Source: Amphibalanus amphitrite
Lineage: Eukaryota > Arthropoda > Thecostraca > Balanomorpha > Balanidae
Direction: 5' to 3'
Assembly (NCBI RefSeq): GCF_019059575.1
Contig: NW_024881589.1
Location: 1,013,501-1,077,500 of the forward strand
DNA: 64,000 nt
Position numbers and translations under genes: made by a program. The notes under the pieces are model-generated. The model made no database searches, had not been told where the DNA came from, and saw only the letters and a list, made by a program, of their open reading frames with translations. Shown here one piece after another: positions 20,100-57,848 of this stretch (the first letter of the stretch is position 1; each line of letters begins with the position of its first letter).

Positions 20100-31759
<11,660 letters not shown>

Positions 31760-35497: not shown

Positions 35498-35851
35498 CCG
35501 CTTCTCTTCTGGCACTAGTAGAAGCTCTTCTACCGATACTGACTGGCAGCTGCCTGGATAATATGCAGCAGAACAAACTGCTCCTCTTGGCTTCTAGCAC
35601 TGGTAGAAGCTCTTCTACCGATACTGACTGGCAGCTGCCTGGATCTGGTACAGAATAGGCAGCAGAACAATCTGCTCCTCTTGACTTCTAGCACTGGTAG
35701 AAGCTCTTCTACCGATACTGACTGGCAGCTGCCTGGATCTGGTACAGAATAGGCAGCCTAACAAACTGCTCCTCTTGACTTCTGGCACTGGTAGAAGCTC
35801 TTCTACCGATACTGACTGGCAGCTGCCTGGATCTGGTACAGAATAGGCAGC
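35498..35851 (-). repeat. Minisatellite containing copies of a last coding exon
   Basis: Four tandem units of about 80-96 bp. On the minus strand each repeats the segment encoding LPILYQIQAAASQYR plus stop, and the following 3' sequence. The first unit on the minus strand (35803-35851) is the real last exon of the gene at 35803-37878. The others fall in its 3' UTR. Confidence 0.9.
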
Positions 35852-37878
35852 TGGGGGTCCGATGGCCTGCAAAACATAAGGCGCGTTGCTATAGGAAAAA
35901 CCATTTATGCGAGTTTACACAAACGTTATATGTATTAGCCTTACTTTTAGTCTATTAAGATATTGACACTTACGATACAGAGCGGCCATCGATCAATTGC
36001 GTTTATAATCCTTATTTTTAGCAGCTATGCGCAAGCCTATACGTTCGCAATAACAATTTCTATGTGACTTCATGGTCTCTTCATTTAAAATGACGATATC
36101 GGATCGGAGATTACAACATTATGAGTTACGGCTCACAACTATTTCACTCACCCGCCGAAGAATCCTCCGGAAGGGATAGGTCCTACGATGCCGCCGCCGC
36201 CACCTCCTCCTCCGCCTCCCACGGCGGCGGCGGGCACCAGGCCGGCGATGACGGCGGCCAGCGCGAGCAGCGTGCCCGCCCAGAGCGCGCCGAGCAGCGC
36301 GGCCAGCGAGAACCCGCTGATGGCCAGGATGTCGCCGGTGGTCAGCGCTCCGCCGCCCTCAGAGTCGCCGGAGGTGCCGGAGCCACCGCCGGAGCCTTTG
36401 TTTCCCTTCATGCCTTTGTTGCCTTTCTGTCCTTTGCTGCCTTTCTGTCCTTTGCTGCCTTTCTGTCCTTTATTGCCCTTCTCTCCCTTGTTGCCTTTTA
36501 CTCCCTTATCACCTTTATCGCCCTTCATGCCCTTGTTTCCTTTATGTCCCTTTCCCCCTGTATTTTCGCCGTCACCTTTGCTGCCCTTACCCCCTTTGCT
36601 GCCTTTGCTTCCTTTATTTCCCTTGCCACCCTTATTACCCTTCTCACCTCTATTGCCCTTGCCACCTTTACTGCCTTTGTTACCGCGATTACCCTTGCCA
36701 CGCTTGTTGCCCTTGCTATTCATGTCGTCGGTATCGTCTTCATTGTTGCCACCGCCCTTGTTGCCGCCCTTATTTCGATTGCTGTACCGTCTCACTGGGT
36801 TTAGCTTATCTAGCAGCGGGCGGTCGTCAACATTGCTGCTGCTGAACGTGCTGTAAGCATCCTCCGCATCCTCAGACCCAAGCACATCACCGGTGGTGAC
36901 GATAGGTGCACTTCCTTGAGTAGCCTCATCAGCACTTTTCTCCACAATCGCGGGTAAGCCAGTGGCATTGACGGAAGCAGGCTGTGGGTTCTTTGTGCTC
37001 CCTGGAGTGGCAGTAGTCTGTCCACCATCATCGTCATCAATCTCATCAGTGCTGGCGGTGGAAGAACTCAACAGAGGAGTGGCAGTGCTGATATTGGGGT
37101 TCTGAATAGGACTACTGACATTGGATGGACTTGTTGAAATCTCAGGATCGGTGTTGAAAACTTGATTTGAAGAAGGAGGTTCAGCGTTAATGACTTGACT
37201 TATAGAAAGATCATCTTCATTGATGATGGAGCTCATCGGACGAACGCGGATAATTAAATCTAAATGAAGTGACGTTAACTTTGTGCTGGATTTGTCGGTA
37301 GAAACTGGAGTGATATCAACGGTGATTTTGTTCGAGGCTTCTGGAGTGCCATCGGCGCTGATGTTATCCCGCATCGGTAAGGCAGGACTAATGCTGAAGC
37401 TGTTCGAAGTCACTTGAGTTGAATCAGTGCTGGCGCTACTCGAAGTCGCTGATGTGGCACCAGTTCTCTTATCATTCAAGGTAACCGCGGCAAAATCAGC
37501 GCCAAGTTCTCCGGAAGGCGCTGAAGCTGCGTCAGGGATGTCGTCTTCTGAAATTGTCTGAGTTACGTTTGGTACGTCACTGTTCAAAACCACAGAAGCG
37601 CCAATGGCTTCATAAGGAGGCACTGTAGTAGCATTTGTGCCGCCGTCAACTGTAACCGATGGATAAACATCAGTGCTGATGTTTGATCTCACCGGGAAGG
37701 CTCTCACAGTATGACTGTCCGGTGACACCACTGTTACACTGTCGATGGTATTGACGCCCGAGCTCGCAGGCTCTGCCCCGGCTGCGATGATGGCGGCGGC
37801 GGCATTTGATACCGACAGAAGGAACACGCTGGATATCACGGCACATACCACTCCTCCGGTCCACGCGCCGGACACCAT
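35803..37878 (-). CDS. Secreted/membrane protein with Gly-X-Lys repeats, family member 1
   Basis: Two exons: 37878-36152 and 35866-35803, joined at phase 2 by GG|GTGAGT and TTTTGCAG|G, giving 596 residues. ATG 37878 starts a signal peptide (MVSGAWTGGVVCAVISSVFL). About 360 Ser/Thr-rich, probably glycosylated residues follow. Residues ~386-494 are Gly-X-Lys triplets without proline. A hydrophobic helix (about 508-545), a ten-Gly run and GGFFGG come next. The last exon encodes PSDPQLPILYQIQAAASQYR, matching the last exons of the genes at 40956-42422 and 45066-45735. An upstream GTG (37941) is also in frame but less likely. Function unknown; a matrix, mucus or adhesive role is a guess. Confidence 0.75.
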
Positions 37879-37941
37879 GCTGCAGAGGGGGCCCGGCGCC
37901 CACGCGCGTCCGGGCACCACTGTGACGTACCGAGTGTTCAC

Positions 37942-39146
37942 TGCAGCCAGTACTGCTCAGTGATCACCCAGTTACACAAAAACCACGGTAATGGGACCGA
38001 CCGCTTCTTTAGAGCCGGACCAGACAGGTTCTGCGTCGATCGGGCCTCAAATAATGCGTGGAAATTCGGAGCCGTTTAGGTAGCAAAAAGGGGCAGGTTG
38101 AGTTGAATGACAAGTAAAAGTATTACAGGTAAAAACTCAAATTAAAATGTCCTTAACTAAATCCACCAAGTAAGCATCAACTTTCCTCGGTGAAGTTCAA
38201 GCTCGCTGGGGGGGGGGGGGAGGGGGAGGGAAAGGAAGTTAACATTCGCTCTTACCTCAGCTCCTTGGTCACGTAACGAAAGTCGGGGGTATGGCATGTT
38301 ACATTCAAAAGGTTATACAAACATTTTAGATTACACATAGCCCAGTCATTTATACGGCTAGACCAGAATTGACCTAACCTTAGGTCACTGATGAAAAATT
38401 CGAGAAAAGGGACTCACTTTTCACCCTAATCGATGTTTGAATTGAAAGCTGCAATGCAATCGCTCAGTCGGTGTAACTAAGGAGAGTATTAATTTTTCTT
38501 TATGCCTTGCCCGGTGATCTGACTCCGAGTAATCTTGTTCTGAAATTTCCTCATGTGTGGAATAGATGTTTCATAAGTTAAGCCGCAACTCCCGAAAATG
38601 GCCCTACTCAACAGAGTTCTTGTGGTGTCGTGGCCGACACCATTCACTCCTAGTGGTTTGACCTGTAGTGATCAGCAAAGGTCACGACCCCCAAATTTGC
38701 ACAGCACATTGTTGTGGCTCACGATCAGCGGAGCTAGAGTGCTAGAAAAATATCACCAATCGTTTCGTAAGGGGTTGAAGCTATTTTCCAACTATCGATT
38801 TTACCCCAAAGTTACGCGATGACCTGAGATCACTTATGCGTCAGGTCGAAAACACTTTTGCACAGCAGTTCTTGACAAATTTATATGAATCAGGGTAACT
38901 ACGATCGAAAGCACGTCATTTAGTAGCCCATTGAGTGTGGCAACGTTCCCTGATCCATAAATGAACAAAGGACATCGTTTGACCTTGGGGGCATCGATAG
39001 TGGAAAAGAAGCTCCTGGGCTTATCGAGTTGCCTGCAGGTGACATTTTCAGCGATCTAGCTCCGCTGGTGGGTCACAATCTGCTGTGGCCTGTGCGAATT
39101 TCGGAGTCGTTGCTTTTGTTGATCTTTGTAGGTCAGACAGCTAGGA
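37942..39146. other. Intergenic and promoter region of family member 1
   Basis: Contains a G-run at 38209-38222. No gene recognised. Confidence 0.4.
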
Positions 39147-40331
39147 TTAACCTTCGCCCCAATGGGGGGGGGGGGGCATATGTTACCACCCTTTCGCGTT
39201 TTTTGCGTATAAATAAAAAACCGCGGCGCGTAGCGCCGCGCCGCTTGGGGTAGCTTTTGGTACATCAATTTTGGACAATGTGTGAAATTTTTGACCCCAG
39301 GTCATGTCAGGTCAGGTCACCAGGTCAAGTTAACTGACCAAGCCTAAAAAAAAGTTTGCAATCATGCCCAGCCTGCAGTGTTTGTCAGAAAGATTTTAAA
39401 CTTGGTGGATTGCATGATGTTATGGGCGCCTACAATTTGTATATCTCGGATTTTGTATATCCGTGACCTAAGGTCAGGTCAGTGGCGTGACCTTTCCATT
39501 ACAAGTCAATGGAGAAAAATGAAAATGCCTCTAGATCCGTGTGTACGCATAGGAACAGTCCAAATATTTCAGAATCACAATGATTTGGACCACCCGTGAT
39601 GACCAGGGTGTCATTTTTGCTGATAGCCTCTAGAAAGGTCATCCGAGGTCCTTTGAGGCTACAAACAGATTTTTGCCAATAACTCGCGATTGGAAAGAGA
39701 TAGAACGCTGGGGATGGTCTCATTGTGTTTGTCTTGCCGAGACGCATCGACTGATATGCAACATGACTTTTCCGGTCAGGTCATGACCTTGACCTGAGGT
39801 CAAATTTTCAAGTTGACCTTTCAAGGTCAAATTATAGCTCATTCGACGCGTCTCGGCGAGAGGAGCACGATTCTGGCAATAGAAATGTCGTGGCTTTTTG
39901 TTGTCGAAAGTTATTGTCAAAAAACACTTTTCGTAAAAACAGCTATTTTTGGAGTTTTTGCCCTCTGGAGGCTAAACCCGTGACCTGAGGTCAATTTTGA
40001 TAATGACCTTTTCAAAAGAAGAGTTCAAGAACTATCGATTGCTTTTCCATGCGTTTTTCTAGCTACCATAGTTCCTGAGATAACGGCATGTTTTCTGAAA
40101 AATATGATGACCATTGGCAAATTTTGACCTTTGATGACCTCTGGTGACCCCAATATTGCTCTAAGATGAAAAATGACTGAAATACTTTCAAACGTACGCA
40201 TTGAGAGCTATCGACTGCTTTTTACCGCGTCTTTCTAGCCCTCTTAGTTTTTGAGTTAGAGGTGGGTGGTAACATATGCCCCCCCTCACTAGGGCGAAGT
40301 TGGCGGAGACCGCCACTGGGGCGCGGGTTAA
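39147..40331. mobile_element. G-run TTAA element 1
   Basis: TTAA at 39147 and 40328 encloses CCTTCGCCCCAATGGGGGG and its near-inverse (CACTGGGGCGCGGG). The subterminal signature is GCATATGTTACCACC at the left and its exact inverse at the right (40267-40281). A GC hairpin lies at 39218-39240. The interior is rich in AGGTCA/TGACCT. 1185 bp, non-coding. Confidence 0.88.
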
Positions 40332-40955
40332 CACCGAATGATTTGGGCCACGTATTCCATACTTCAAGGGCTCCGCTGCTTGCGAGTTTCAACTGGATTC
40401 GATGTGTTCCAAATCTGGCCTGAATATTAGATAATCCGGGTTGAACATTGGCTGCCTTGTCGGGCATATCTTTTTCAGACACTTGTCAATGTTTATGAAA
40501 ATGGTCAGCACCTACCAACTAATTGTTTTAGAAATGTCCTTTTCATAAATCGAAACACTTTCCATTTTATTATGTGCTGTCACACGAAATAGTTCATGCG
40601 ATATTATATTCATGACAGATACATGCAAAACGAGGAATACCTATGTCCATAACATAGGCATTAACATACACCAGTAATTATGTTTATAAACGATCGACAT
40701 TAGATGCAAACATAGATAATCATCGTGAAGGACACAAAATGAAGACTAGATAAACGCGAACACTTGACTCAATCGCTTCTTATGATCGCTTTCATACATA
40801 CTTTACACACACTGTAACATATCACATTACACTATCAAGCCTCACATAGACTTGCACGACACAATAAGTTGATTGAATACCTTTGCCCATCATCCACAGC
40901 TGATACGAACATCCGGCGTAGGCGTATATTGAAAATATCATTGTTTTTATGTGGC
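40332..40955. other. Intergenic, no gene seen
   Basis: AT-rich spacer and probable 3' UTR of the minus-strand gene at 40956-42422. Confidence 0.4.
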
Positions 40956-42422
40956 TTAGCTCTCATAATCCGCCTCTGTCTGGTATAAGCGTGCTGCCTT
41001 CTCCAGCTGGAGCAGAATTGGTAGGTCGGCGCTGAGTGACCTGTAAACAAAACACATGACTACAATTATGGAACTGCAATGGTATAGTTAGATTGCCGAA
41101 GAAAATTAATTACTTTTTCGTGTAAGGAACACTATCTAAGCTCAGCAAAGTACACAAATGTAACGATGATAATACTAAAATTTGAGAAACAGACTATTAG
41201 AATTATAGACCTTACCATACATTCATTACATATATAGTTAGTAAGTAAATGGTACAATGTCCCATGGGCTCTAATGCTCACAGTCAGCAGGACAAAGTGC
41301 TTAGAAATGCTATAACTAAATAATAATAAAAAACATTTTAATGCTTTAATGACATTATTACAAAATGTTTCAAATATGGATTCCATTACATTTAAATATT
41401 CGAAGTACACGCAACAGTATAAAACTGTATGCTTTAAGGTCTTAGATGAGTCTGTACTGGACCTAACTATTCATCTAACATGAATCAAATGTTGGATGGA
41501 AAAAGTTTGCTTTTACAAACGATTACGCTACGATCGATCTCTGAATGTGTGGCTTGTGATAATTATATTTAGCAATGCTACGCATTTTTTAATGTTTTTA
41601 AATGCCGATCAAAATTCTTGTGGCCTTGACATTGCAAAAAAAAACTGTAGCCATTTTTGCAGCACAACTCTGTCGGCAACAAGTTGAACCGAACAGCTGT
41701 AGCTGCTAACTTTTTGATATGAAATTTCTCACAGCATTTCTATAAATTGCCTTGAAAATTGTACTGTAACCCTGCGATGCTCTTCGTAACACAGTTGATC
41801 ATGGTTTGTCTACTAAGTAATTTTCTAGCCGTTTACCCAGCTCTGGTATTCGGTCGTTTTCTCACCTTTTGTATCCGTGGCCGTACCCGCCATACCCGCC
41901 GTGACCGCCGTGGTGGCCGTAGCCGCCGTAGTCGCCGTAGTAACCGTACCCATAGCCGTACTGATGGTGGTGGTCGGCGATCAGCGCGATAAAGATCAGG
42001 ATGATGATCACCACAATGGCGGCCACCAGACAGATGATCACCACCGAGACGATGGCGTTGCTGCCCAGCGCCAGCCATGTGTTGGCGCTGCTGTTCTCCT
42101 TCAGCACGCTGAGGCCGGGAAGGGTGAACAGCGACCAGCTCCGGCTGAACAGACGTCGGAGGTGGTCGGCGATGGCGCCCGGGATTGCAGACGGACTGAG
42201 GGTGACGGCGGTAGCGGCGGGGCTGGTGACATCAGCAGCGGACGCAGCAGTAGCAGGGACGGCGGCAGTGGCGGCTGGGCTGGCGGCATCAGCAGCGGGA
42301 GCAGCAGCGGGGGAAGGGACGGCGGCCGAGGCGGCGTTGACGGCTGACGGTAACACCAGTGCAGTGACAGCGAGCCCAGTGACTGCGAGAGCAGTGATCT
42401 GTCGTCCAGTGACCGGCGCCAT
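40956..42422 (-). CDS. Membrane protein with Tyr/Gly/His tail, family member 2
   Basis: Exons 42422-41866 and 41040-40956, phase 2, AAAAG|GTGAGA and GTTTACAG|G, giving 213 residues. ATG 42422 begins a signal peptide (MAPVTGRQITALAVTGLAVT). An Ala/Pro/Ser/Val-rich stretch follows, then 'LPGLSVLKENSSANTW', a strong membrane helix (VVIICLVAAIVVIIILIFIA) and a tail of GYG/GGYGH repeats. The short last exon encodes SLSADLPILLQLEKAARLYQ plus eight residues, the family terminal motif. The helix-proximal part resembles the plus-strand member at 54148-57848. The unspliced frame stops two residues after the donor, supporting the splice. Tail composition recalls cuticle or adhesive proteins, inference only. 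Confidence 0.75.
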
Positions 42423-42676
42423 GACGCCCCTTCTGCGCCGAGCCGCGCTGTGTCTGACACTGGCGTCGGTGCCTGCGTCGGTGGCTGGTCCAGTGACCCA
42501 GTGGCAGTACCTGCCAGTTTTTATCGACGGCTGGGGCGGGTTCATGACATGAAGCACCCCAGCTGCCGGACTGTCGAATAGGTTGAATAGGTGGGTGGAG
42601 CCATTTCTTCAGCGGTGGCTATCTAATTCTTACTCATTTTACGGTAGTTTAATGTCGTGCTAACATATTCTGTGTC

Positions 42677-43882
42677 TTAACCCGCGCCCCGCTGGGGGGG
42701 GGGGGGGAGGGGCAGAATCTGCCCCCTCCCGTTTTTCGCCAATAACTTCTAAACGCGTTACGCCAGCGACATCAAACTTTGAGTACCTTATCATCCATCA
42801 ATTTGACACGTTCCCTGAAAATTTGAGCGAAATCCGTCGGAATTTTTTTTTTTGAGAAATTGACGTTTTTGTGACGTCATGTTCGCCATTTTCGCCTCAA
42901 AAAACGGCAAAATTTCAAACGCCGGTAACATCTTCATTTTTAAAGGAATCAAGACGTAACAAAAAAGGTTATACGTGATTCTACTTTGTCTATCAAATGG
43001 CTATCTCGGTTTTTTGAAATTGTTGGATTTTGGCCCAAGTTTTTTTCTTAAAAAACTGACTTCTTTGGGAAAATTATTATAAAATCCAAAATTTTGAGTG
43101 TATCGAAAAAACCAGAATATATGTCAGAGAAGTAGTCTATGTGCACCTATATACCAATTTTTTAGAAGAATCGGTTCAAAAATGTGGGAGTTATTCAAAA
43201 TTTTATGACGTCACGACACACAAAAATTTTGAAAAATGATTTTTTTGGAAGTTCTAGACTTCGTACGGAAACAAAAATAGCACCATTCGATTCGCCGTGA
43301 AAAACTGCATCAGTTAGACACCTTTTTAGGCCTTAACAAGCAACTTCAAAATTTGACCTCACTTGACCTGACCTTGACCTGACCTCGACCTGAAACTCAT
43401 CCAGAGGTGGTCCATATCACTTATTGAGTGTGCCTATTAAATTCTATGAGTAAAATGACCCATAAAACATGTGTCGCACATGCCCTTTTCTATATTTTGT
43501 TTTTGGTGACCTGACCTGACCTGACCTGACCTTGACCTTGACCTTTGAATGACATTGTATGCAACGAATTTTGTCTTGGTAGTCTAAGAACACGTTTTGG
43601 GCAATCAGTCTCAGCCCATTCTCCGGCAACTACGGTGCTAGGCCGATACTGTAGAAACTTACATTTTGTACCCTTGACCTGACCTTGACCTGACCTCTGA
43701 CCTACTTAAGCAAAAAAATTTGGGCTCTGTAGTAGTGCCTTGTTGAGAGCTTTCGATTGCCGTTTTCCCCGTCTTTCTACGACCATCGGTTCGGAAGTTA
43801 GACAGGGAGGGGGGCAGAATCTGCCCCCCCCCCCCCCCAGCAGGGCGCGTATGGCTGAATAGCGCAGCGGGGCGCGGGTTAA
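42677..43882. mobile_element. G-run TTAA element 2
   Basis: TTAA at 42677 and 43879. Tips are CCCGCGCCCCGCTGGGG and inverse, with signature hairpin GGGGCAGAATCTGCCCC at both ends. The interior has runs of TGACC (43366-43395, 43506-43550, 43674-43705). The right end carries an extra ~26 bp between two tip copies. Confidence 0.9.
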
Positions 43883-45065
43883 TTGTATCTCCTAAACAGT
43901 TTAATAACACAGCGATCAGCACCCTAAAATCCATCGCAAAGGCTTCACCGTTTTGTTTTTAAATCCTAGCAGAAGCTAGACTCATAGTCATAACCAAGGC
44001 CGTCATAACAGCCGTGACTGCCTTGGAGTCACGACAGCTCGTTAAGACTTTTTTTGAGCCGCCACGGGCCGGATGGCTGTCTGGGACCAGCAGTGGGCCC
44101 GTAAATAGCCTACTAGCTTTGGACAAGCATATATGAAACAAAAATATGGGCCCCAATGTATAGCGGAAACCGCTGACATTTCAATAGGCATAACCCATTC
44201 AAAAACAATGTAAAAGACATCATCTATAGAAAGTGAATGAATTTTCAGTAAGCACATAATAAAAAAGGGTATATTTTAGCATGCAGCTTGCACTCTGTTA
44301 CATGCACGCCGACAATGCACTCACACAGGGTCATACGGCTGCACGGCAACACATCTCGTATGCCCCCCATATTAGTTGACGAAACAAACAAAATAATAGC
44401 CACCTTCTCTCGGAAACACAATAAGCCAGCTATGCAATTTTTTGTTTTTAACATTGTCCTCGTTAATGTTTAAAAGTTTATGCTAAAAACATAACTATAA
44501 CGGCAGCAAAACAAACACACTTACCTAGGCTTCAACATTCAAGTATTAACGAAAATAATGCAACTATAACACATAGTTAACACAAATCATAAACCAATTT
44601 TCTCACAATGATCTTCACAAAAGCACTAATAACGAAAGATGATCAATCTCACTCTTCACACAGGCATGACGCAATGCCATATTAGTTACCCGAACAAATT
44701 AGCGAAGATCTAATTTCTATCACACAAAATGACAATGCAGTAACGTAAGTAATGCGGTAACTATTCAGCAATAAAACCGATGAGGCATAGATGAGGTCAA
44801 ACTATCTTCTACATTGGAAGATTTTGTAGCTTCCACACGGGAACATTCGACAAACGATAACAAGCTGAAATGACACCTCATTAAAACAACGGGGGAGGAT
44901 TTTACTTGCGCATTGCCCACGCATGCATGGCCTAATGCATGCATCACTGCGATCTTCCCCGTTCACTTGCTGCACATTGACATAATAAAGCATTCATCAT
45001 GGTAGTTTTCGTTCCACCTCCATGGTAGGAAATGGTAAAAATCACGATAATTACTTGAAAGCTTC
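43883..45065. other. Intergenic, no gene seen
   Basis: AT-rich spacer. No frame or RNA recognised. Confidence 0.4.
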
Positions 45066-45735
45066 TCATTGGTACAGGTTTGCGGCCGTTTCAAGGTGAT
45101 TCAAAATGAATGGCGTTGATCTGAGCGCTCTGAAAATAAATTTTCGCTTGATTAGTTGAGAACTAATTCGGATTTTACACATGCACAATGACAATTTAAT
45201 CGAATAACAACAATTTCTTCGAATAACAACAAGTTCGTTCACGCTATTTCAAATATTACACGCTGCAATTCATCTCAAATGATGCTTTACCTTTTACCCA
45301 CATTCCTGCTGAAAAAATCCCACCCAACACCCAACGGCCTCACCACTTGTTGAGAATAAAATTGACGAGCCGCTGAGCTCAATAGTGATTATCTCACCTG
45401 TAATGTGAATAACTGTGGTGTCCGCCATGTCCCCCGTATCCCCCGTATCCACCGTATCCGCCGTATCCGCCGTATTTGCCGTGTTTGCCGGGGAGCAGCA
45501 GCAGGCCGATGATAACCACTGCAGCCACGATCAGCACCACCCAGATGATGGAGGTGCCGCCCAGGCCGGTCTGCTTGTCCAGGTAGTGGTGGACCTGAGT
45601 GGTGCCGCCGCTGGTGCCGCTCGTCTGGCGGCCTGGTGGTGGTGCTCGCTGCAGTGGTGTGTATCGCCCAGTAGCGAGGGTGAAGGTAGCGGCGACGACC
45701 GCGGCCACGAGGCAGATCAGCAGAGAGGACCGCAT
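45066..45735 (-). CDS. Small membrane protein with Gly-Gly-Tyr tail, family member 3
   Basis: Exons 45735-45398 and 45129-45066, phase 2, TTACAG|GTGAGA and TTATTTTCAG|A, giving 133 residues. A signal peptide (MRSSLLICLVAAVVAATFTL), a short polar ectodomain, and a membrane helix (IIWVVLIVAAVVIIGLLLLP) are followed by a tail of five GGY repeats ending HHSYSHYR. The 64-nt last exon, the same length as in family member 1, encodes ALRSTPFILNHLETAANLYQ and stop. It is the most compact member and shows the minimal plan: signal, helix, Gly/Tyr tail, terminal motif. Confidence 0.78.
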
Positions 45736-46860
45736 GCTGAGTCCAGTGGGCAGAGCAGGGCGTCGGCAGTCGGGTGGCAGTCTGGACAGCTACTGGTGCC
45801 AAAACGCAGTCACCGCAGAAGCCTTACGGTTAGCGAATATAGAGGGGCCAGTTTTTTGGTAGACGGACCCGGTTCTAACGGAAATGGTGTGTGTGGGTGG
45901 GAAATGAAAACGAAGTCTCATGAGTCGAAAGTGGTTCATCACGCGACAGGCTTTCAGACTGCCGAAAACGGTGACCACGGACGGCATTGTGACCTTATCG
46001 CTGGCAGCATTATCTAGAGAAAATTGTGAGCGGGGGACACATATAGGTAGGCCCTGCAAAATGATTTCGTTTGTGGTACATGCCGATTGTAAGATGATTT
46101 GAAATTAAACCAGCTATCATTTACAACGCGGAAAAATTCAAATAATCGTTCTATTGCCTGCAATTGCATCTGTATTTGAACAAAAGCAATGTCACGTCTT
46201 TGTCGAAAGAATCCGTTTTCAACGCCAAGAGATGAAGAGACCACACCATTCTGGAAAAAAATTGATACGATAAATTTCCATGGCCAACTACCCGAAACAC
46301 CAAACAACTTTGAGATAGGAACGCGCGTTCAGTTGATGAATAAAGTTCCGGGTGTGAGTGAGCACCCGTTCTGAAACAAAAATAGCCTGTTCAAGGAGAC
46401 AGGCCAATTTTCTGCGCCAACAGCCACACTAATAGTTTAGGAACACATGAAATGTTCGTTTAACATTGGTATTAAAAAGACCAATATTCTCTCTACCTTG
46501 GCCACATAAGGACCTTATTCAATTCTTGCACGGTGAATGCAAAACGGCTGGTGTTATGCATTCTCTGCTGAGGTGATTACCGAGAGCTTTGACATATGGC
46601 ACACACACAATCGATCGCCTCAGTTTCATCTGACAAACCATTCATCTACAAATCTGTAACATGGGTGAAAAAATGTCTCAGGCTGTCACCGACGGAAGGT
46701 CCAGCTGACTCACGCCTAATTTTGACATTTGAGCAGTAGCTAAATGAAGTTTGAGATGCGCTGAGGACATCAAGGTACGCCTATCATGAAATAATCAATT
46801 TTCGACAGTCACAACTCACATCATTGTGCTGCAGTTATTGGAATCACAAACCACTGACAC
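45736..46860. other. Intergenic, no gene seen
   Basis: Promoter side of family member 3, then AT-rich DNA. Nothing recognised. Confidence 0.4.
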
Positions 46861-47018
46861 CATAGGCGGCGGAACAGGGGGGGGGGGGGGCACCGGCGCA
46901 CCGTGCCCCCTTGATTTTGGCATTTTAACATTAGCCCTATAGGCGTTGCATGGAAAGAATGGTACCAAAAGTCGGCAGTGCCCCCCCCCCCTTAATTGAA
47001 GGTGTTCCGCCGCTACTG
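46861..47018 (+). mobile_element. hAT-type MITE, copy 2
   Basis: 158 bp, flanked by a perfect 8-bp duplication ACTGACAC (46853-46860 and 47019-47026). Same ends and interior as 11304-11454, with expanded G- and C-runs. Confidence 0.92.
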
Positions 47019-47026
47019 ACTGACAC

Positions 47027-48352
47027 GTAGATAAAAGGAAAAAGCTGCAGAGGAGCGCTGAGTGTATTGTCCGTGCAAAGCGGAAGCAAATTTTCGTTCT
47101 ATTTAATGCATGGCTTGAGGTCGTTTCGACACGAAGAGAAACATCACAAACAAGATTATCATCCACAATTCCATTTAGGTGAATGTTTTCGAGAAAAGGA
47201 GATGGAACAACGGTTGATCATAAATCATAATCCTCAAAACACGGGTGGCTCTCGTCGAGTGACGTTAGCATGCTCCTAAAACTCGGTTCGGTTAGAGAGT
47301 AGTTGATTAGTATGTAGCACCAACAACCTCAGCTTGTTCGAGACACCAATAGATACCTACGGTTGTTAGGCCCATGGCGAGCGGCGAGGATCGCCGTCCC
47401 CTGTCCCTGTTATACGGCCTTGCCTTGCCCACGGTTTATGACGATTCGGCGGAGTCTCAGTCCTATCGTCCCATAACGTCCGAGGCCTGTTTATGGGGCC
47501 GGCGATGGCACCCCGAAGATTCTACTGGTCAGTCGAATTTGAAAAGTCTTAGTGATCGAACCTCGTTGTGTCGGTTGTGAGGCCGAGTATTGCGCAGAGG
47601 AATTGTGACTAGCGCTACGCATTGGTATAACATCGTAAGTACCTATATCGGGCATTTGTAGTGTTTTTTTTTCGGGAATAGAATCACCGTTAACAAATAC
47701 CCCGCTAATTTAATTTACAATTAGCTGAAAAAAACGTAACCTGATTGTTTGATATTACTGAACAAGATAGCACTTTTACTTGTTATCGACCTCAGGAGCA
47801 AGCTGGTATTACAAATAACATATGTTCACCGTTAAACACTTTTCCTCTTTATAATGCAAACCTGATTCGAACTTCATCGCATAAACAATAAACATGCGTC
47901 GCCTCCGAGATGCGAACTCACGACCCACGGATCCGTAATCCGAGACGCTACCAACTACGCTACATGGGCCCGAGCGGCGCGGCCCGGAGAGATGCGATGT
48001 GGCTGGTGGGGTGCAGAGAAATATTTACCCTGTACGCCCTAGAAGATCGGCTTGATTTCGTGCAAAATGGTAGCCATAAGCCAACCAAATGCTTTGACTT
48101 ACCTGACATGGCATGTTTGCAGCAGACTGAGATTGAGAAAAGACAGATGCAGAGGCACCACTCGCATCATTCGTGGTGTTTGTGTTGGTGTCCGATGTCT
48201 GGCTTTTCCCATCTTCAGTGGAGCACAACCACGTGGAACAAAAATTACCAAAAACGCCAACGGCCACAATCCCGCCACACAAACAGGACAAAGAGTCTGC
48301 GATCTGCTGCGATCATTCACGTGAGCACGGGTCATTCACCATTTGAATTAGT
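47027..48352. other. Intergenic with a decayed tRNA-Arg-like sequence
   Basis: No gene recognised apart from the tRNA-like stretch listed separately. A 68-codon frame at 47374-47580 has a good ATG context but no family features. Confidence 0.35.
47898..47969 (-). repeat. tRNA-Arg(ACG)-like sequence, pseudogene or SINE head
   Basis: The minus strand carries A-box TAGCGTAGTTGG, an anticodon arm like tRNA-Arg (TTACGGA loop, ACG), and B-box-like GAGTTCGCATC. The acceptor stem (GCCCATG against AGGCGAC) does not pair, so it is not a functional tRNA. More likely it is a tRNA-derived SINE fragment. Confidence 0.6.
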
Positions 48353-48605
48353 TCAGGCCCATGTCGTCCCCTATCTCCGCGCGTGTCCACTAACACGAAT
48401 GACGTCACGCATGTGGGTGGAGCTATGGGCGGAGCCTAATGCACGCGGCAGTCCAAGCCGCCATATTTGAATTTATATTTTAATAGAATCTTGCCGATAT
48501 TTTGGGTGAAGTCAATTTATATGGATAGCTTGGTGACAGTTTAGCTATACGAATAATAATTTATTATGGATGTGCGTATATTCAGCTTGGAATTGCAGTT
48601 AAAGT

Positions 48606-48679
48606 TCCGCAACGCATAGATTCGAACTCGGGACCTTTGGAATACTGCGCGGGCACGCTAACCACCACACTACCGCGAC
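48606..48679 (-). repeat. tRNA-like sequence in left fold-back arm
   Basis: Mirror of the right-arm copy. A-box TAGTGTGGTGG and B-box GAGTTCGAATC read on the minus strand. The T stem is imperfect. Confidence 0.6.
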
Positions 48680-49643
48680 CGCGCGGCGGCCGGCGGCAGG
48701 GAGGCTGCGGAGACATGGGGGGACATTTTACGCTTTTGTGAAAAAAGCAAAAGATTTAGCGAAAAACACGTAATAGATAACTTGCAGAAAATTGTCTGCT
48801 CTTTCAGATAAGATACTTAGGTTTGATATATCTTGTGCAGTCTTCATTCTACAGTGCTTCGAAAATCGCTCATTTACATGGGGATTGAACGGGGCTTCGA
48901 GACTTGACTCCAAATGACGTCACGAGCTGACGTCACGAAAAGGTAGATTCGCCGGACGACCCTACCTGGTATATAGGGCCTTGAATTAGTTGATTTCTTC
49001 AGGATGATAAACTTCAAAATGTGACCTACTGGCTACTGCCTACTTGCTAGAAACAGCGTGCATTCTTTAGTTGACTTGGTCTGCTTGCTAGAAAAACGCG
49101 AGTCGTTGACAAATAAAACTTATGAGTAGGTATTTTAGCAAATAGCTCAAAAGGCACATGAAAACATTACTTTGGGATTAAACAATCTAAATATGTAACA
49201 AATAACTGCTTTTACATGGACTCTTACAGATGGAAAAATAATTCACAAATTTACTGACGTCATTTACGTTGTGATAAAATGTGGTGCAACAAATCACTAG
49301 CCACTATTTATAAGAATCGCGCCATAATTGTAGCTGACCCAAGGCCCTATATACCAGGTAGGGTCGTCCGGCGATTCTACCTTTTCGTGACGTCAGCTCG
49401 TGACGTCATTTGGAGTCAAGTCTCGAAGCCCCGTTCAATCCCCATGTAAATGAGCGATTTTTGAAGCACTGTAGAATGAAGTCTGCACAAGATATATCAA
49501 ACCTAAGTATCTTATCTGAAAGAGCAGACAATTTTCTGCAAGTTATCTATTACGTGTTTTTCGCTAAATCTTTTGCTTTTTTCACAAAAGCGTAAAATGT
49601 CCCCCCATGTCTCCGCAGCCTCCCTGCCGCCGGCCGCCGCGCG

Positions 49644-49717
49644 GTCGCGGTAGTGTAGTGGTTAGCGTGCCCGCGCAGTATTCCAAAGGTCCCGAGTTCG
49701 AATCTACGCGGTGCGGA
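49644..49717 (+). repeat. tRNA-like sequence in right fold-back arm
   Basis: A-box TAGTGTAGTGG (49651) and B-box GAGTTCGAATC at RNA polymerase III spacing. Acceptor and T stems pair poorly, so this is a tRNA relic or internal promoter. Confidence 0.6.
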
Positions 49718-49970
49718 ACTTTAATAGCAATTCCAAGCTGAATATGCGCACGTCCATATTATATTAATATTAGTATAGCTAAACTGTCACGAAGCTATCC
49801 ATATAAATTGACTTCACCCAAAATATTGGCAAGATTCTATTAAAATATAAATTCAAATATGGCGGCTTGGACTGCCGCGTGCGTTAGGCTCCGCCCATAG
49901 CTCCGCCCACATGCGTGACGTCATTCGTGTTAGTGGACACACGCGGAGATAGGGGACGACATGGGCCTGA

Positions 49971-50783
49971 GCTGACCCATCGAACCCACCGGTATACTCA
50001 CGACACGGCCGGCCTTTTTCATTGGCCAGCAGGGATGTCGGAAGCTGGTGGACGCGTCTGCTATATTTTTGCGTGGTATGATTTTAACGTGACTTCACAT
50101 TAGGATATGTATTATGCTTTGGAATGAATGTGAATTGTGAGGGATTGCGGACGTGATGACTGTTTATAGCTTTTCGTTGTCAACTATCAATTTGACAAGC
50201 CGCCAGCTGTCTCATCAAATGTCATAAGCTGTCACCTGCGTGCGTCGGCGAGTCGGAGCTTTTTTTCACCCCTGTGACTGTAAAGTACCTAAAAGAACGG
50301 CATCAGGAATACCGTTCCATTTTGTATAAATCTGCGATGAGATTGTGGACAAAAATCGAAGTGGTAGTACTTTTATTTTCAATGATTTCTCATGTAGCCC
50401 AATTCTCTTTCAGTATCACAGATAAAAGCATCTGTCGTTGAAGCGTTACCCGCAATAAGGACTTCCCGGTGCCTGCTGGATGACATACTACCTGTGTGGT
50501 TTCAATAATTTTTAATCCATTTTTTTTTACGGACTCGGCCGGGCTGGGCTTTGACACGTTTAGCATGAACGGCTTCGGACTGGGCCGGGCTGTGAGCCCA
50601 TGGGCCTGGGCTGGACTGGATTAGGATTTTGCGGCCTGTGGCGAACACTGAGCTGTCGGCCAACTACCGGCCATCGCGATCGTCCACAGCGGACCAGTTT
50701 TTACTGGAAAGTCTATCGGGCATCGGGTGGACTGATCCGCGTGTTGGGAGGCATGCGATTGCGAAATGCGTATAATTTGATCA
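49971..50783. other. Intergenic, no gene seen
   Basis: Nothing recognised beyond short GGGCTG-rich imperfect repeats at 50540-50625. Confidence 0.4.
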
Positions 50784-51967
50784 TTAACCCGCGCCCTGCT
50801 GGGGGGGGGGGGGTGTTTGAACACCCCCCTTGTGGTTTTTCGCGAATATTTCAAAAACGGCGGCGCTCCGCGCCGCCGTTTTTGGTACACCTTATCATAC
50901 ATCAATTCTACACATGTTGTGAAAATTTCAGACCAAGGTCATTCAAGGTCAGGTCACCAGGTCACTTGAAGTGACCTCACCTCATAAAAAGTTTCAATGT
51001 CTGTCATAGCTACACCGAGTGACCGATCGCTTTGAAACTTTCAGCGATTGCTAAGAGCAATAGCATGTACAAAATGTATATCTCATAATTTTGATATCGA
51101 TGACCTAAGGTCAGGTCAATTTTGCAGCCTCCCCATTATAAGTCAATGGGAGAAAAATGAAATGCGTCTCTTTTGGACGAAAGACATTATAAACACTCCC
51201 AAACACCGAAGTACAAGTGGTTTAGACACACTGAACATGAAAATGGTGTCCGTGACCCTTGTTTATGCCCTGAGGTCATCTTAGGTCACGAATGGTATCT
51301 AACAGTTTTTCGCAAATAACTTTTGATAGAGGCAGGCTAGAGCGATGAAAATGTCTTATGTGTTCAGCTCGACGATATGGATCGACTGATATGCAACATG
51401 ACCCTTTCCGGTCAGGTCATGACCTTGACCTGAGGTCAAATTTTCAAGTTGCCCTTTCAAGGTCAAGTTATAGTTCATTCGATGCGTCTTGATGAGAGGA
51501 ACACAATGCCGGTAAAAGTAAGCTCGTACAAGGCTTGGGTCAAAAGTTATTGCAGAAAAACTGTTTCCGAAAAAATCGGCTATTTTTGCAGTTTTTGCCC
51601 CCTGCAGGCAAAACCGTTGACGTTAGGTCAAATCTGAGAGAATTATTCAGAAAGGACGTTAATAGGGCTATCGAATGCACTTTTCCGCGGCGCTGTAGCT
51701 CTATTGGTTCCCGAGTTATGCGTTGGCTTCTTGGAAATTTTCGACATTCGACCTGGAAATCGGCGAAATTTTGTCTTCAATGACCTCTGGTGACCTGACC
51801 TTTGACCTGACCAAAAAATTGACCGAAGTGATTTCGTCATTATTTTTTACGCTCTTTCGAACGCCGCCTTCCGCGTATCGCTACGTGGCCCAGGAGCCGA
51901 GTTAGAAGGGGGGGTGTTCAAACACCCCCCCGTGGAAATCCAGGACCCCCAGCAGGGCGCGGGTTAA
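50784..51967. mobile_element. G-run TTAA element 3
   Basis: TTAA at 50784 and 51964. Perfect tips CCCGCGCCCTGCTGGGGG and inverse. Signature GTGTTTGAACACCCCC at left, matched at right. GC hairpin at 50856-50884. Many AGGTCA/TGACCT sites. The best-preserved copy. Confidence 0.93.
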
Positions 51968-51997
51968 AGTAGATACCGGACGAAGGGAAATGCATTC

Positions 51998-52234
51998 AAC
52001 ATATAATCAAGAAAAGTAACCATATACTCTCATAGTTAATATCCAAAATCGTAAGAAAAAGGCCTGATAATTCCGAGGAGCTTTCGGCTTACGCCTTCTT
52101 CAACTCGCTCTGAAGTTGAAACAGAGCGAGTTGAAGAATGCGTAAGCCGAAAGCTCCTCGGAATTATCAGGCCTTTTTCTTACGATTTTGGATATTAACT
52201 ATGAGAGTACGGTTACTTTACTTGATTATATGTT
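51998..52234. repeat. 237-bp near-perfect hairpin
   Basis: Arms of about 115 bp (51998-52112 and 52122-52234) are inverse with few mismatches around a nine-base loop AAGTTGAAA. It starts 31 bp after G-run element 3. It could be a MITE or a hairpin-RNA source. Confidence 0.95.
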
Positions 52235-53335
52235 TAAGCGTGTCTCTCAAAACAGTGTTAACAGCAATTCAGAATATGCATTCACATTGCACATTGCAGA
52301 TATATGAAAACAAACGGGACATTATTTTGACGCATATATCAGATACATGAACGGTACCTTTTTCAGGTTACAGGTATACGACATAAGCAAAGTAAGCTTT
52401 CTGCCCAACAGCCGTAACATTTTTTATACCTACTTATCACTGCATGCTGTATAACGCGCATGTCACACTGATAAGGTTTCCTGTGGCCCTGAGGAGGCCC
52501 GAGGCTCGCTTTAAAAACAGCACTCTCAATATCTCTTCCGTGGCTATGCATAGCAAAAAAGTGACGCTCGGTTCGAAGCACATGACACAGTCGAACCAAG
52601 AACGCATATCTGACCTCTCCACTGAGTTCACGCTAAGAATGTGTGTTGTTTTTCCGCTTACGTCCATATCGCTATATGGTTACTTATACCAACCACCTTC
52701 CTAATTAAACCATCCATCATATTCCCGATATTTGTTACCCACGCGTGTCCGCCGTTTGTCACCCAGTTCCCAGCGTCCAGCGATATAGCCCGGCGTCCAG
52801 TTCCACTCCATAATACGACAGGTGGCGCCGCCGTGTTAGATCACGGCTCTGTCTGAGTGCACCCGTTAGCTGCCGTCCCATGGGCCTCCCTCACATCTGG
52901 CGGTGTTATAGCACAACTCCGCCGGCTGGCACATGTATTCCGCACTTCGAACATAGCTAGTTAGCTCGGGTTTGGTTCATGACGGACCTTCGGACTGACG
53001 ACTGCATCGACCAACGAGAAATGATATCCGTGCATCCGTGAATTTGCATCTTAATTAATGAACCAAACACCGCTTTGTAAATGGCCTTGACGAATCTGAT
53101 TTTGAAGGAGCAGATTTAAGCCAGATTACGCGAAAATTGCATGTGCCATATGAAATAACTACCGGTTTTTATCTTGTCTTTAGCATCATTTTAATGCTTA
53201 ACAATCCCAATCCCACTGATGCTAGGTAATAAATAGTAGGGACAAGGACATTGCACTGCAGCCTAGGGTTTTCTAAGGACATTAAATAAAGAGCAGTCTT
53301 TTACGCTATGTTGAGCTCGTCAGCAATAGCCGTTT
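52235..53335. other. Intergenic, no gene seen
   Basis: No recognised gene or RNA. Confidence 0.4.
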
Positions 53336-53613
53336 TCACGACGGACTATCCGGCGACTGGCGAGTGCACCTAATTTGACCAAATCTGCGCCTAATCTCTT
53401 TTACAGCAAATATCTGTATTTCATGCATTTATTTTAGTGTTTTAATCGATGATACTTTCTGATAATATGACAAAGCAGGCATATAAGCAATTAGTGCAGC
53501 CCTAGCTGATAGATACTTAGAGACACACTGAACCTAATTTGACCAAATTTGCACCTAATCTGCACCAAATGTGCACCAGATGTGTACCAGATGACCGTCA
53601 TGAAAACGGCTCT
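53336..53613. mobile_element. Putative small TIR element
   Basis: AGCCGTTTTCACGACGG (53338) is inverse of CCGTCATGAAAACGGCT (ending 53611). Inside are direct repeats of CCTAATTTGACCAAAT and degenerate TGCACC units. Confidence 0.55.
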
Positions 53614-54147
53614 TATTAGTTAGTCATGATTACTTATTGATTGCAATGTGCTGAGATAGAACAATGCCCGTCGGGTACCGATGTGATATACCGCTTCAGC
53701 TCTATAGTTCAAAGCTCTGGATGATCGGGTGCTTCACGTAGGCTCTAATCCTCCACATTCCATCCGACGATAGAAAATTTCAAGCATTTTTTGTTTGCCG
53801 GTAAAATATTCCAAAACATTTAGTTATTGAAAGACGTCTTGCTTTTATGAACATGAAACACAGTAGAATAGAAAGCCGACGCTCGGTAGTAAATCTGAGC
53901 GTGTTATAGGGCGCATAGTTAAATGGCTCATTCCGAGAATGTTCTGCTCGTTGCCCGTGCCACCGATCACGTCCAGTTCGTGTTTACCGACCGACTACGG
54001 TCGATCAGCGGCGTCCGTCGCCGGTGGCGGCCCGTTTCACTCTTCTCCGCCCCGCACGGCCCCGTTCCCGCGCGGCTGCTGACGAGCGGCCCGCGCCATC
54101 GGCCCTCCATCAGACGCGGTTCAGTGGTGACTCGGGCCGGCCGCGCC

Positions 54148-54182
54148 ATGGTGTCCTCCGCACTGCTGCTCGCTACTGTCCT

Positions 54183-54213
<31 letters not shown>

Positions 54214-57200
54214 ACAGACGCGTTAGTGCTACCGGCAGAGACGGCAAAAGGTACCCTGCGGCCTCCTGAGGTCAGCAATCAGCAGTCGGACTTGCTGCAT
54301 CGCCTGGAGCGTCTGCCCAGCGCCTCTGAGCAATCTGCGTCCTACGGAAGAAAAACGGCATCCGTAGAGACTGACGCTGTAGTAACAAATACCTCCAGCT
54401 TGGCTTGGAAAACGTCTCAAGCGGATCAACTCAATCACTCCGCTGAATCTGCGAAAACGTCGAACTTGACTGTCGATCTGCATAGCAAGAATGTCACCGC
54501 ACAAAGTCGATCAGTGCCACCACACATCCATGCCGTTGGTCATGCTCTCACCGAGTCCGTCCGCCTTCTGGCTGGCCGTGACCTCACCGGGTACTTACCT
54601 CGTGTCAATCTGGAGAACCTCATTGACTCTCGGTTCATTGCCATATCGGGCAGCGCCGTGGCACAGACCGTGATCACGGGGCTGCTGATCGCCGGAAAGA
54701 TCGTGCTGACGCTACTGGTGCTCTGTCTGGTCGTGGGTCTGTTCTTTGCGCTCGGAGTGGTCGGCCATTCGTCACCGGTGTACAACCGGTACGGCCACTA
54801 CGACCCGTACTCGCCGTGGGCGCCGTACACGGCCAACGGCGCCATCGACCAGCCCGGCTACAAGGGACGAGCGCTGGACTCAGGTGAGTATAGGGGACTT
54901 ACACAATACACTACAATACACGCCAATACACGCCAATACACGCCATCGACCAGCCCGGCTTCAAGGGACGAGCGCTGGACTCCAGGTGAGTATAGGGGAC
55001 TTACACAATACACATACAATACACGCCAATACACGCCATCGACCAGCCCGGCTACAAGGGACGAGCGCTGGACTCAGGTGAGTATAGGGGACTTACACAA
55101 TACACTACAAAACACGCCAATACACGCCAATACACGCCATCGACCAGCCCGGCTACAAGGGACGAGCGCTGGACTCAGGTGAGCATTGAACTTTTACAAT
55201 ACACTACACAGGGGCGCGCGCTGGACTCAGGTGAGCATTGAACTTATCCAAGGGATGAGCGCTGGACACGGGTGAGCATCGAACTTATCTAAGGGACGAG
55301 CGCTGGAGATGGGTGAACGGGGAACTTATCCAAGGGACGAGAGCTGGAGATGGGTGAGCTGGGGACAGACGAGCCCGGGGCACGGGACAGGGCGCACCCT
55401 TGATCGGACGTGACGCACCCCGGACACAGTTGAGTAGGGAACTGGACGCGCCCTGGTGACGGGTAGTCAGGGTACGGCTGAGAGGGGCAAGCCCTGGATA
55501 TAGGTATGTAAACAGGGAAGGATGGTCTATTGAGCATGTGTGATCAGGCCGACCAGGGAGTTATATTTTATCGACATTTATAAGCTAGATTCATGACAGT
55601 CATACAGGAGCAGATCCCTAGGCATCCCGACGTTATCCCGGCCGGGCCCGGGGGGTAATCCCAACCACCGCAGCCCGGGGGGGGGGGGGGCGTTTTTCGC
55701 CCCCCTGTCTAACTCCGTAAATAAGGGAGCTACGGAAACAAAAGTGATACCAAACGAAAGGTCCATACGAGACGATTCTAATGCACCTAAAATTTTTGAC
55801 CTCAGGTCAATTTTCAAGGTCAGAGGTCAAGGTCAAAGGCCAAAACCGGCACATGTGTAGTGATCTCAAAGTAAGCCTTCTAGAGGACGGCAGACTGCAT
55901 CAAACCGGCAAAATTGGGTGTCAAACGAAATAAGAGAATCTGAGGATTCTGAAAATGTGCTCCAAATCAAAGGTCAAGGTCAAGGTCACGCTCAAAATTG
56001 ACCTCAAACTTGGCACTTTTTCGCACATCTTGCGTGCTAACTTCCAAGATGTTTTGAAATGTTTTGAGGCTTATCAGTTCCCTATTTGTGGTTCATCTTA
56101 CGATACAAGGCTGCTCAAAGGTCAAGGTCACAGAAAAGTATCCCTGCTAGAGGCTATTTCACTGATTCAAGTTAGTAATAATAAATAAGACAATTTTGCC
56201 ATCCGGAAGCTCTAAATGAAGGCTTAGAGGAAAATAGATGCCAGATTCGTGATCAGCGGGTACAAATCCATCATAAACGACCTTTCATGTGTCAAGGTCA
56301 ACCAGAGGTCATTCGAGGTCACATGAGGTCAACATGAAACTTGACCTTTTCCGAACAAAATATATATCATTCGACGCGGCTTGACAAGGCGAATGCGATG
56401 GTACCACTGCCGTAGCTCTAGGACCATTTTTGTCGAAGTTATTTGCGAAAAACTAAAACCACATTTCGGGGTCTTTGACCTGACCTCTGACCTCAGGTCA
56501 CCAAAACTATTTTTCTATTTTTCTCTAGGTCAAACGCTACACAGCCGTGCTCGTAATTTGTCTTTATCTCTTAAACTCTATTTTTAGCAGCTATTTGAAT
56601 TTTGCGTCTGTGACGCCGAAGTTTGCCGTGCAGGGGTCTAGAAAAATGGACCTTGTGACGTCATCAAGGGGGCTAGGTCCAAATTTTTTACTTCAGAAGA
56701 TGTCAAATTGATGGGAGAAAAGGTACTGAAAGTTTCGCCTTCCTATCCCTAAGCGTTCGGGAGTTATCGCAAATATTCGCCAGGGGGGGCGAAAAACGCC
56801 CCCCCGGGCCCGCGAGGGTTATGAGTCATGACACCCCTCCCCCAAAAGAAATCCGAGATAATGGTTTGATTTCCTCACAAGATATGCGCACTAAACTACC
56901 GGCACAGTTCCCTCGGTGAGCATGTCTGTGGCCGAACCATCTGCCACGAATTCATCCACCGAAAACGCATCGCCTGGACCCGTGCTGGCAGTTCCCCACA
57001 CACGGGCATTTGTCGCTGATTACACTGTCAGACATCCGGTGAAGGCGCAATTCACACCAGCTGTACACCTATGCTGCGCCGCAATACTCGGTAGTTGTGC
57101 GGCACAGCATATCGGAGAACAAGACAATATCAGCAATAACAAATGTGTTTTACTTACCTGACTTTCGTATGCTCCCATTAAAGTTTGATTCTGCTGGTCT

Positions 57201-57848
57201 AGTAGTCATGACCAGCTAAATCGGCTTGGCAAATAGCCATGAATTTTACGAAATACCTAACGAATGCGATATACAATATGCATGTGCTAGTCACGAAAAA
57301 TCAGTCGTTATTTCCTTGAAGAAGTAACCTCTGACATCAACGCAATGATACCGTTCAAATTAATTCCCTCTCAAAATTTAGGCATGCACTGGCTTCCTAG
57401 TTCCTGATCCTGTTTGAATTGTGAATGAGTCCATCGGGTACCTACTATCTAAAACATAAGAATGAGGCGCAATGTTCCATGTAATCCGCAATGTAAAAAT
57501 ATAACAGCACAGTCCAGGATCAAAGTTGGCTTTCCAAATCAATGTGAGGCCTTGATGCAGGGAAAGTTCTGCAGGCTGCCCTTCCGCCCTATAACAGCAT
57601 TAAAACAACAGAAGTTATTGCAAAACTTAAAAGCATTACACCCACCCAAATTTTGCGCTTGACAACAGCATTTTAGACAAATCGTGGCAAGGCAATCACT
57701 GATCAGTGGCCAGCCTGCACGTTGTGCAGTGTGCACTGTGCATTGTGCAGCTGCCGCCTGCCGTCGTGCCGACAGCCAATTGCCTTTTTGCCTTCTAGCT
57801 AAAGATGCACTTCAGACCCAGTATCAGCTGGCGGGACCTGCGCACTGA
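54148..57848 (+). CDS. Membrane protein, family member 4 (plus strand)
   Basis: Exon 1 is 54148-54883. ATG 54148 in good context starts a signal peptide (MVSSALLLATVLTATATATV). A Ser/Thr/Asn-rich ectodomain follows, then 'LLAGRDLTGYLPRVNLENLI', a membrane helix (VITGLLIAGKIVLTLLVLCL) and a Tyr/Pro/Gly tail ending GYKGRALDS. It ends at CAG|GTGAGT, phase 1. A compatible acceptor, TGTGCAG|CT at 57750, opens an exon to TGA 57846-57848 encoding SQLPFCLLAKDALQTQYQ, which resembles the family terminal motif. The total would be 277 residues. The 2.87-kb intron contains repeated donor units and G-run element 4. Exon 1 is solid; exon 2 is a prediction. An upstream in-frame ATG (53923) exists. Confidence 0.6.
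54841..55460 (+). repeat. Tandem array reiterating an exon end and splice donor
   Basis: Units repeat the last ~40 bp of exon 1 of member 4 plus the donor (ATCGACCAGCCCGGCTACAA ... CTCAGGTGAGT). The first four are near-identical at about 95-100 bp spacing. They pass into shorter degenerate units (GGGACGAGCGCTGGA...GGTGAGC) to about 55460. Confidence 0.9.
55633..56822. mobile_element. G-run element 4 (TTAT target), in intron of member 4
   Basis: TTAT at 55633 and 56819 encloses CCCGGCCGGGCCCGGGG and its near-inverse. The signature GGGGCGTTTTTCGCCCC is matched at both ends. Dense TCAAGGTCA and AGGTCA sites, including AGGTCA-g-AGGTCA at 55817-55829. Confidence 0.85.

Follow-up and report, generated by a model that had tools for sequence, protein, structure and literature searches.

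Several described arthropod systems come close to the genes considered here. The insect Osiris genes (DUF1676) are described as clustered in PMC3284338, and two planthopper Osiris members carry a DM4_12 domain according to PMC12825958, where the function of the DM4/DM12 domain is termed unknown. That paper was the only one in an open-licence collection to match the Pfam accession or spaced names of DM4/DM12. The cuticular proteins with GYR or YLP motifs, also from arthropods, are characterized in PMC2932725 by short motifs with conserved tyrosines. Fast-changing, low-complexity membrane proteins are usually hard to group into families, and a tiny conserved last exon would provide a handle for finding such families as well as a precise site for binding tests.

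The window analyzed here is a 64,000-nucleotide stretch of the genome of the barnacle Amphibalanus amphitrite (C92:1013501-1077500). Own-genome searches covered the 807.55-Mb assembly of 2644 contigs, and an extended scan region of 184 kb, 5 kb of it N, included the window. A preliminary description had proposed a four-gene family (g1 to g4) defined by a small shared last exon; three of the genes (g1 to g3) bear this out, and g4 does not. The features concerned are as follows, with a slash marking the splice junction.

35506..35851, minus strand: tandem array of period 94, copies 96% alike
35803..35866, minus strand: g1 last exon, 64 nt, G/PSDPQLPILYQIQAAASQYR and stop
36152..37878, minus strand: g1 exon 1, phase-2 donor CGG/GTGAGT
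40956..41040, minus strand: g2 last exon, 85 nt, R/SLSADLPILLQLEKAARLYQTEADYES and stop
41866..42422, minus strand: g2 exon 1, phase-2 donor
45066..45129, minus strand: g3 last exon, 64 nt, R/ALRSTPFILNHLETAANLYQ and stop, recovered as an exon of its own when g3 was searched against the genome
45398..45735, minus strand: g3 exon 1, phase-2 donor
54148..54883, plus strand: g4 exon 1, phase-1 donor TCAG/GTGAGT
54840..55208, plus strand: tandem array with a period of about 101 in which the g4 exon 1 end and its donor recur
57751..57846, plus strand: proposed g4 last exon, not accepted, tail similarity within chance

The gene structures, tail similarity, and tandem layout of g1 to g3 can be read from the sequence itself. 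Genes g3, g2, and g1 stand in a row on the minus strand in a common orientation, and their introns are all GT-AG, phase 2, 268 to 825 nt long, and 34-37% GC, with donors that each fit the consensus at 8 of 9 positions. The exon ends given previously (36152/35866, 41866/41040, and 45398/45129) proved correct, each pair forming a GT-AG junction, as did the phase 2 assignment of all three introns and the last-exon lengths of 64, 85, and 64 nt, two of them thus being equal. The frames also stop right after the donor, as had been pointed out, and this is not independent evidence, since phase 2 followed by GTGA always yields TGA.

In each of the three genes, the first exon encodes a hydrophobic N terminus and a later hydrophobic segment. 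The order in g1 is a signal peptide, a Ser/Thr-rich and then Gly-x-Lys-rich ectodomain, one or more hydrophobic segments, and a Gly-rich stretch; in g2, a signal peptide, an Ala/Ser/Pro-rich ectodomain, a strong membrane helix, and a Gly/Tyr/His stretch; and in g3, a signal peptide, a short ectodomain, a strong membrane helix, and a Gly/Tyr/His stretch. The first exon of g4 encodes a signal peptide, an ectodomain with four N-glycosylation sequons, one or more hydrophobic segments, and a Tyr/Pro-rich stretch. The shared plan put forward earlier, with one membrane helix and a Gly/Tyr tail, needs correction for g1 and g4: the Gly-rich stretch that follows the membrane segment of g1 has no Tyr, that of g4 is rich in Tyr and Pro, and both proteins show adjacent hydrophobic peaks rather than a single clean helix. 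The charge flanking the membrane helix does not fix the topology. Genes g2 and g3 align over the membrane and Gly/Tyr parts as well, with an E-value that was calculated without composition correction.

Six open reading frames (ORFs) of at least 60 amino acids in the window combine a hydrophobic N terminus with a later membrane-like segment. Four of these are g1 to g4; the remaining two, which look spurious, lie antisense to g1 and within the g2 intron. The flanks (120 kb) gave six further ORFs, by eye repeats or other proteins. At about 36400-36780 on the minus strand, g1 contains a run of Gly-x-Lys triplets without proline and with collagen-like spacing; the Pfam Collagen model matched g1 with an E-value of 0.00043 (20.4 bits, under the cut-off of 27.2). 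The tandem array at g1 consists of the coding part of the last exon, repeated about three to four times downstream, and the second copy has, by eye, an AG that keeps the frame from the g1 donor.

The tails of g1 (PSDPQLPILYQIQAAASQYR), g2 (SLSADLPILLQLEKAARLYQ, continuing as TEADYES), and g3 (ALRSTPFILNHLETAANLYQ) align over 20 residues without gaps, as had been stated, and I, L, A, A, and Y are invariant. To score this similarity, any AG within 1.5 kb that gives a short phase-2 end was allowed for each gene, and the top-scoring ungapped trio, aligned from the first residue of the exon, was taken. The winning trio consisted of the tails already described, with a joint score of 101, which 0 of 300 Markov controls reached (mean, 56; standard deviation, 5.4; maximum, 83). 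Decoy donor trios from the 184 kb scored at least 101 in 59 of 2000 cases when unfiltered, a set that includes overlapping places and repeat copies, and in 0 of 3000 cases (maximum, 99) after removal of places less than 4 kb apart, the surroundings of the true tails, and pairs with more than 12 of 20 residues in common, a filter that was introduced only after the unfiltered outcome was known. Because neither the Markov nor the filtered decoy controls ever reached 101, we regard the tail as a real shared protein feature, and g1 to g3 as a real tandem family with a common tail exon, as far as sequence can show.

Tail identities are 8 of 20 for g1-g2, 5 of 20 for g1-g3, and 10 of 20 for g2-g3, and the pairwise BLOSUM scores were reached by 4, 96, and 0 of 20000 residue shuffles, respectively. 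In the same three pairs, second codon positions are kept more often than third positions (14 versus 9, 12 versus 4, and 14 versus 8 of 20), and the codon is the same at 4 of the 10 residues identical between g2 and g3. A profile of the tails scored above 23 in the 184 kb (5 kb of N included) only at g1 to g3 and at the repeat copies of g1. The idea that the tail forms an amphipathic helix is not supported, its helical moment being no higher than that of shuffles (fractions, 0.60, 0.27, and 0.06).

The tail proposed for g4 scored 67, compared with 61.1 ± 5.2 (maximum, 79) in 100 Markov controls, and no better tail was found as far as the window end. Membership of g4 by its tail was rejected on account of this score, which lies within chance, and of the phase-1 donor. 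An alternative acceptor, with 57799 as the first exon base, has a better pyrimidine tract, and its use would place QLPFCLL within the pyrimidine tract of the intron rather than in the exon. An assembly or allele difference at the g4 donor is possible, because one copy in the g4 array reads TCCAG/GTGAG, in which the extra C alone would give a phase-2 end. The first-exon plan of g4 is as in g1 to g3, and g4 may be a fourth member whose tail has diverged or been lost. Arrays with periods of about 101 and 41 at 54840-55359 copy the g4 exon end and donor.

Other content of the window includes a DnaJ gene and two further ORFs.

2481-5141: retrotransposon-type pol ORF with reverse transcriptase, RNase H, and integrase matches
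12987-14036, minus strand: DnaJ gene, whose product shares 99% identity with an ENA protein, 79% with Pollicipes pollicipes, and 69% with two DnaJ proteins of Amphibalanus amphitrite
27189-28775: ORF with a DUF7869 match

Rfam at the gathering threshold and ARAGORN gave no matches over the window. Stretches rich in the word GGTCA at about 39145-40325, 42677-43880, and 55650-56830, the last inside the proposed g4 intron, end in long runs of C or G, and some adjoin TTAA by eye; by the same inspection they have the appearance of related mobile elements. A small ORF, MRLFSPVLLV...HGHH, with a signal-peptide-like start and an otherwise His/Gly-rich sequence lies some 13 kb past the end of the window (L008, about 2733-2897 on the minus strand).

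Relatives of the window genes were sought in databases and in the barnacle's own genome. Pfam gave no match over cut-off for exon 1 of g1 to g4, spliced g2, spliced g3, or the C terminus of g1. In the protein database, residues 80-213 of g2 yielded 106 candidates, none with an E-value of 10 or less, and an alignment of g3 with the C-terminal parts of g2 and g1 yielded 7343 candidates and no match. Barnacle proteins are present in this database, as the DnaJ control showed. Both queries had Gly/Tyr or poly-Gly runs masked by X and low sensitivity to short tails, so these negative results do not show absence elsewhere; with no relative found in another species, conservation rests on the three paralogues. 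Literature searches brought up nothing on g1 to g4. In the assembly, the g2 tail matched only itself, in a search whose first pass was too coarse for the tails of g1 and g3. With g3 as the query, the matches were g3 itself, g2 (E-value, 0.63), two unrelated-looking places (0.17 and 0.38), and an intronless gene hit in four copies on C19 and C1606 (0.45 to 9.6).

This intronless gene belongs to a family of membrane proteins in the same genome. Its 222-amino-acid protein has a signal peptide, SRFLFN, a membrane helix, and a Gly/Tyr/Ser stretch followed by WSALSAIEWIALAQELYESADELRSRPCQQRLVCQL..., and used as a query it returned seven full-length copies among 25 matches, together with exon clusters on C198/C210 and C810/C1236, which are probably allelic pairs.

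C19:504-531 kb and C1606:107-133 kb, both orientations: seven intronless full-length copies
C198:650501-660500: four first exons upstream of single exons 2, 3, and 4
C810:148001-158000: six first exons upstream of single exons 2, 3, and 4

TATAAA lies upstream of the intronless copy that was inspected. Each first exon on C198 and C810 has its own ATG, a signal-like start, and a membrane helix, and an RFLFN-like motif occurs in most family members, intronless ones included. A phase-2 donor closes the Gly/Tyr/Ser stretch in 10 of 10 of these first exons; because it is the unusual GTACGT in 6 of 10, and because three of the open frames (C198 C, C810 A, and C810 C) contain, beyond it, donors of another phase that fit the consensus better, we infer rather than observe its use. 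The intronless copies, which have the same order in one reading frame with the junction included, support this choice. The joined C198 protein matches Pfam DM4_12 with an E-value of 9.7e-8 (33.1 bits; cut-off, 22). The matched span, residues 113-198, starts just before the end of exon 2 (residues 94-117). An acceptor-like site no more than 20 nt upstream of the ATG, by a rule written after the sites had been noticed, is present in 9 of 10 C198/C810 cassettes, versus 1023 of 5744 ATGs on C92 (0.178), and in g1 and g3 among the four window genes (2 of 4). Judged from their sequences, the C198 and C810 first exons resemble a set of mutually exclusive cassettes. An exon-by-exon search of the genome with PF07841 gave 53 DM4_12 matches, 40 of them over cut-off and many clustered on C75, C239, C434, and C653/C1776; it missed the C198, C810, and C19 members.

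The reading that we prefer, with about even confidence, is that g1 to g3 are tandem paralogues encoding signal-peptide-bearing membrane proteins. As we infer their expression, topology, and tail role, they would be proteins of the secretory pathway, each made from one large exon, with a signal, a fast-changing low-complexity ectodomain, a membrane helix, and a stretch rich in Gly or in Gly/Tyr/His, plus a very small last exon that encodes a conserved peptide at the C terminus. The low-complexity parts would turn over freely, leaving the tail as the only sequence-specific part kept in all three, and for this reason the tail is most likely a docking, assembly, or sorting peptide. It would lie on the far side of the membrane, in the cytosol if g1 to g3 are type I proteins; our best guess is that a secreting epithelium carries them as type I membrane proteins, with the glycosylated or charged ectodomain outside and the low-complexity stretch on the other side together with the tail. 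Even this topology is uncertain, because the DM4/DM12 relatives have conserved cysteines behind the membrane segment.

A tentative alternative, less probable than the preferred reading, is that g1 to g3 are shortened relatives of the DM4/DM12 family, their tail exon corresponding to exon 2 and the stop preceding the cysteine-bearing exons 3 and 4. The family of C198, C810, and the intronless C19/C1606 genes has a window-like plan and a phase-2 exon 2 followed by the DM4_12 exons, and the start and phase of that exon match those of the tail exon of g1 to g3. The layout of signal, membrane helix, low-complexity stretch, phase-2 donor, and small exon 2 is found in g1 to g3, a correspondence of layout only; the junctions read R/SLSADLPILL..., R/ALRSTPFIL..., and G/PSDPQLPIL... 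in the window, R/SGSDPYSAIWDNLSVLDWIAMMEE on C198, and R/SASDPYSAVFDKLSILDWIAMMEE on C810. The weak matches of g3 to the four intronless copies run from the membrane segment into the tail, but the two unrelated-looking places outscore them. When anchored at the split codon, the three tails summed outscored random tails on the C19 copy (P = 0.0017) and also on exon 2 of C198 and C810 once four residues had been cut from those exons (P = 0.0038 and 0.0009), values that are too small because the tails are mutually related. Against the uncut C198 exon 2, however, the anchored sum gave a P value of 0.19, single anchored scores against C19 gave decoy P values of 0.015 to 0.098 and were picked after looking, and shuffled sequences did as well as the tails in free local alignment with exon 2 (P = 0.10 to 0.94). 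The joined C198 protein had no match on C92 among 35 matches, and g1 to g4 do not stand out in a search with a cassette HMM (g3, E-value of 1; g1, 8.2; g2 and g4 not among the matches listed). The PF07841 model gave no match over cut-off in the window proteins, and a pattern search over the 184 kb for the cysteine motif C..R..C[EQ] gave 0 occurrences. In the C198 protein the Pfam match begins at residue 113, five before exon 2 ends, which leaves most of the tail-like part uncovered by the DM4_12 model. None of the 53 DM4_12 matches lies on C92, a negative that is weak because the same search missed the C198, C810, and C19 members. Taken on the sequences, homology between the window tails and exon 2 of the DM4/DM12 family is suggestive but unproven.

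Somewhat more doubtful is a wider proposal, in which barnacles would have a cassette system of interchangeable whole-ectodomain exons spliced in phase 2 onto a single constant C-terminal region. Each such exon would encode the signal peptide, ectodomain, membrane helix, and low-complexity stretch; the constant region would be the DM4/DM12 exons on C198 and C810, and the window genes would be a derived branch whose own constant part has been cut to a single 20-residue exon.

We consider it improbable that recent tandem duplication left the tail behind as a neutral remnant with no function of its own. Tandem copying is frequent here, as the repeated g1 tail exon and g4 donor region attest, but the tails share only 5 to 10 of their 20 residues, third positions have diverged more than second ones, and the splice sites and frame have been kept despite that divergence. 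Chance choice among many acceptors is conceivable for g4, with its 67 against a control mean of 61, but is very improbable for g1 to g3, whose score none of the 300 Markov controls or the 3000 filtered decoys attained.

Compared with the systems described above, the tandem paralogues with a shared tail that we favor differ from the GYR/YLP cuticular proteins: by eye neither a GYR nor a YLP core is present in the window tail, and the window proteins are, unlike those, membrane anchored in plan. They resemble the Osiris proteins in being clustered and in combining a signal peptide with a membrane protein but differ in that no window protein has a DUF1676 match in Pfam. The earlier statement that no named family has this plan agrees with the lack of Pfam matches over cut-off and of database relatives, but a DM4/DM12-domain membrane family with that exon plan is present in the same genome. 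This subfamily (C198/C210, C810/C1236, and C19/C1606) is like g1 to g3 in its signal peptide and membrane helix and, as in the window plan, has a Gly/Tyr/Ser-rich stretch, a phase-2 junction, and a small exon 2; its sequence similarity to the window genes was not significant in the free tail alignments, the cassette HMM search, or the search with the C198 protein, and it continues into a cysteine domain (C..R..C[EQ]), whereas they end after the tail. The family of g1 to g3 appears real but modest, and the cassette-like family elsewhere in the genome appears wider and more interesting. Barnacle arrays of alternative-looking first exons with one DM4/DM12 region would make the role of that domain testable.
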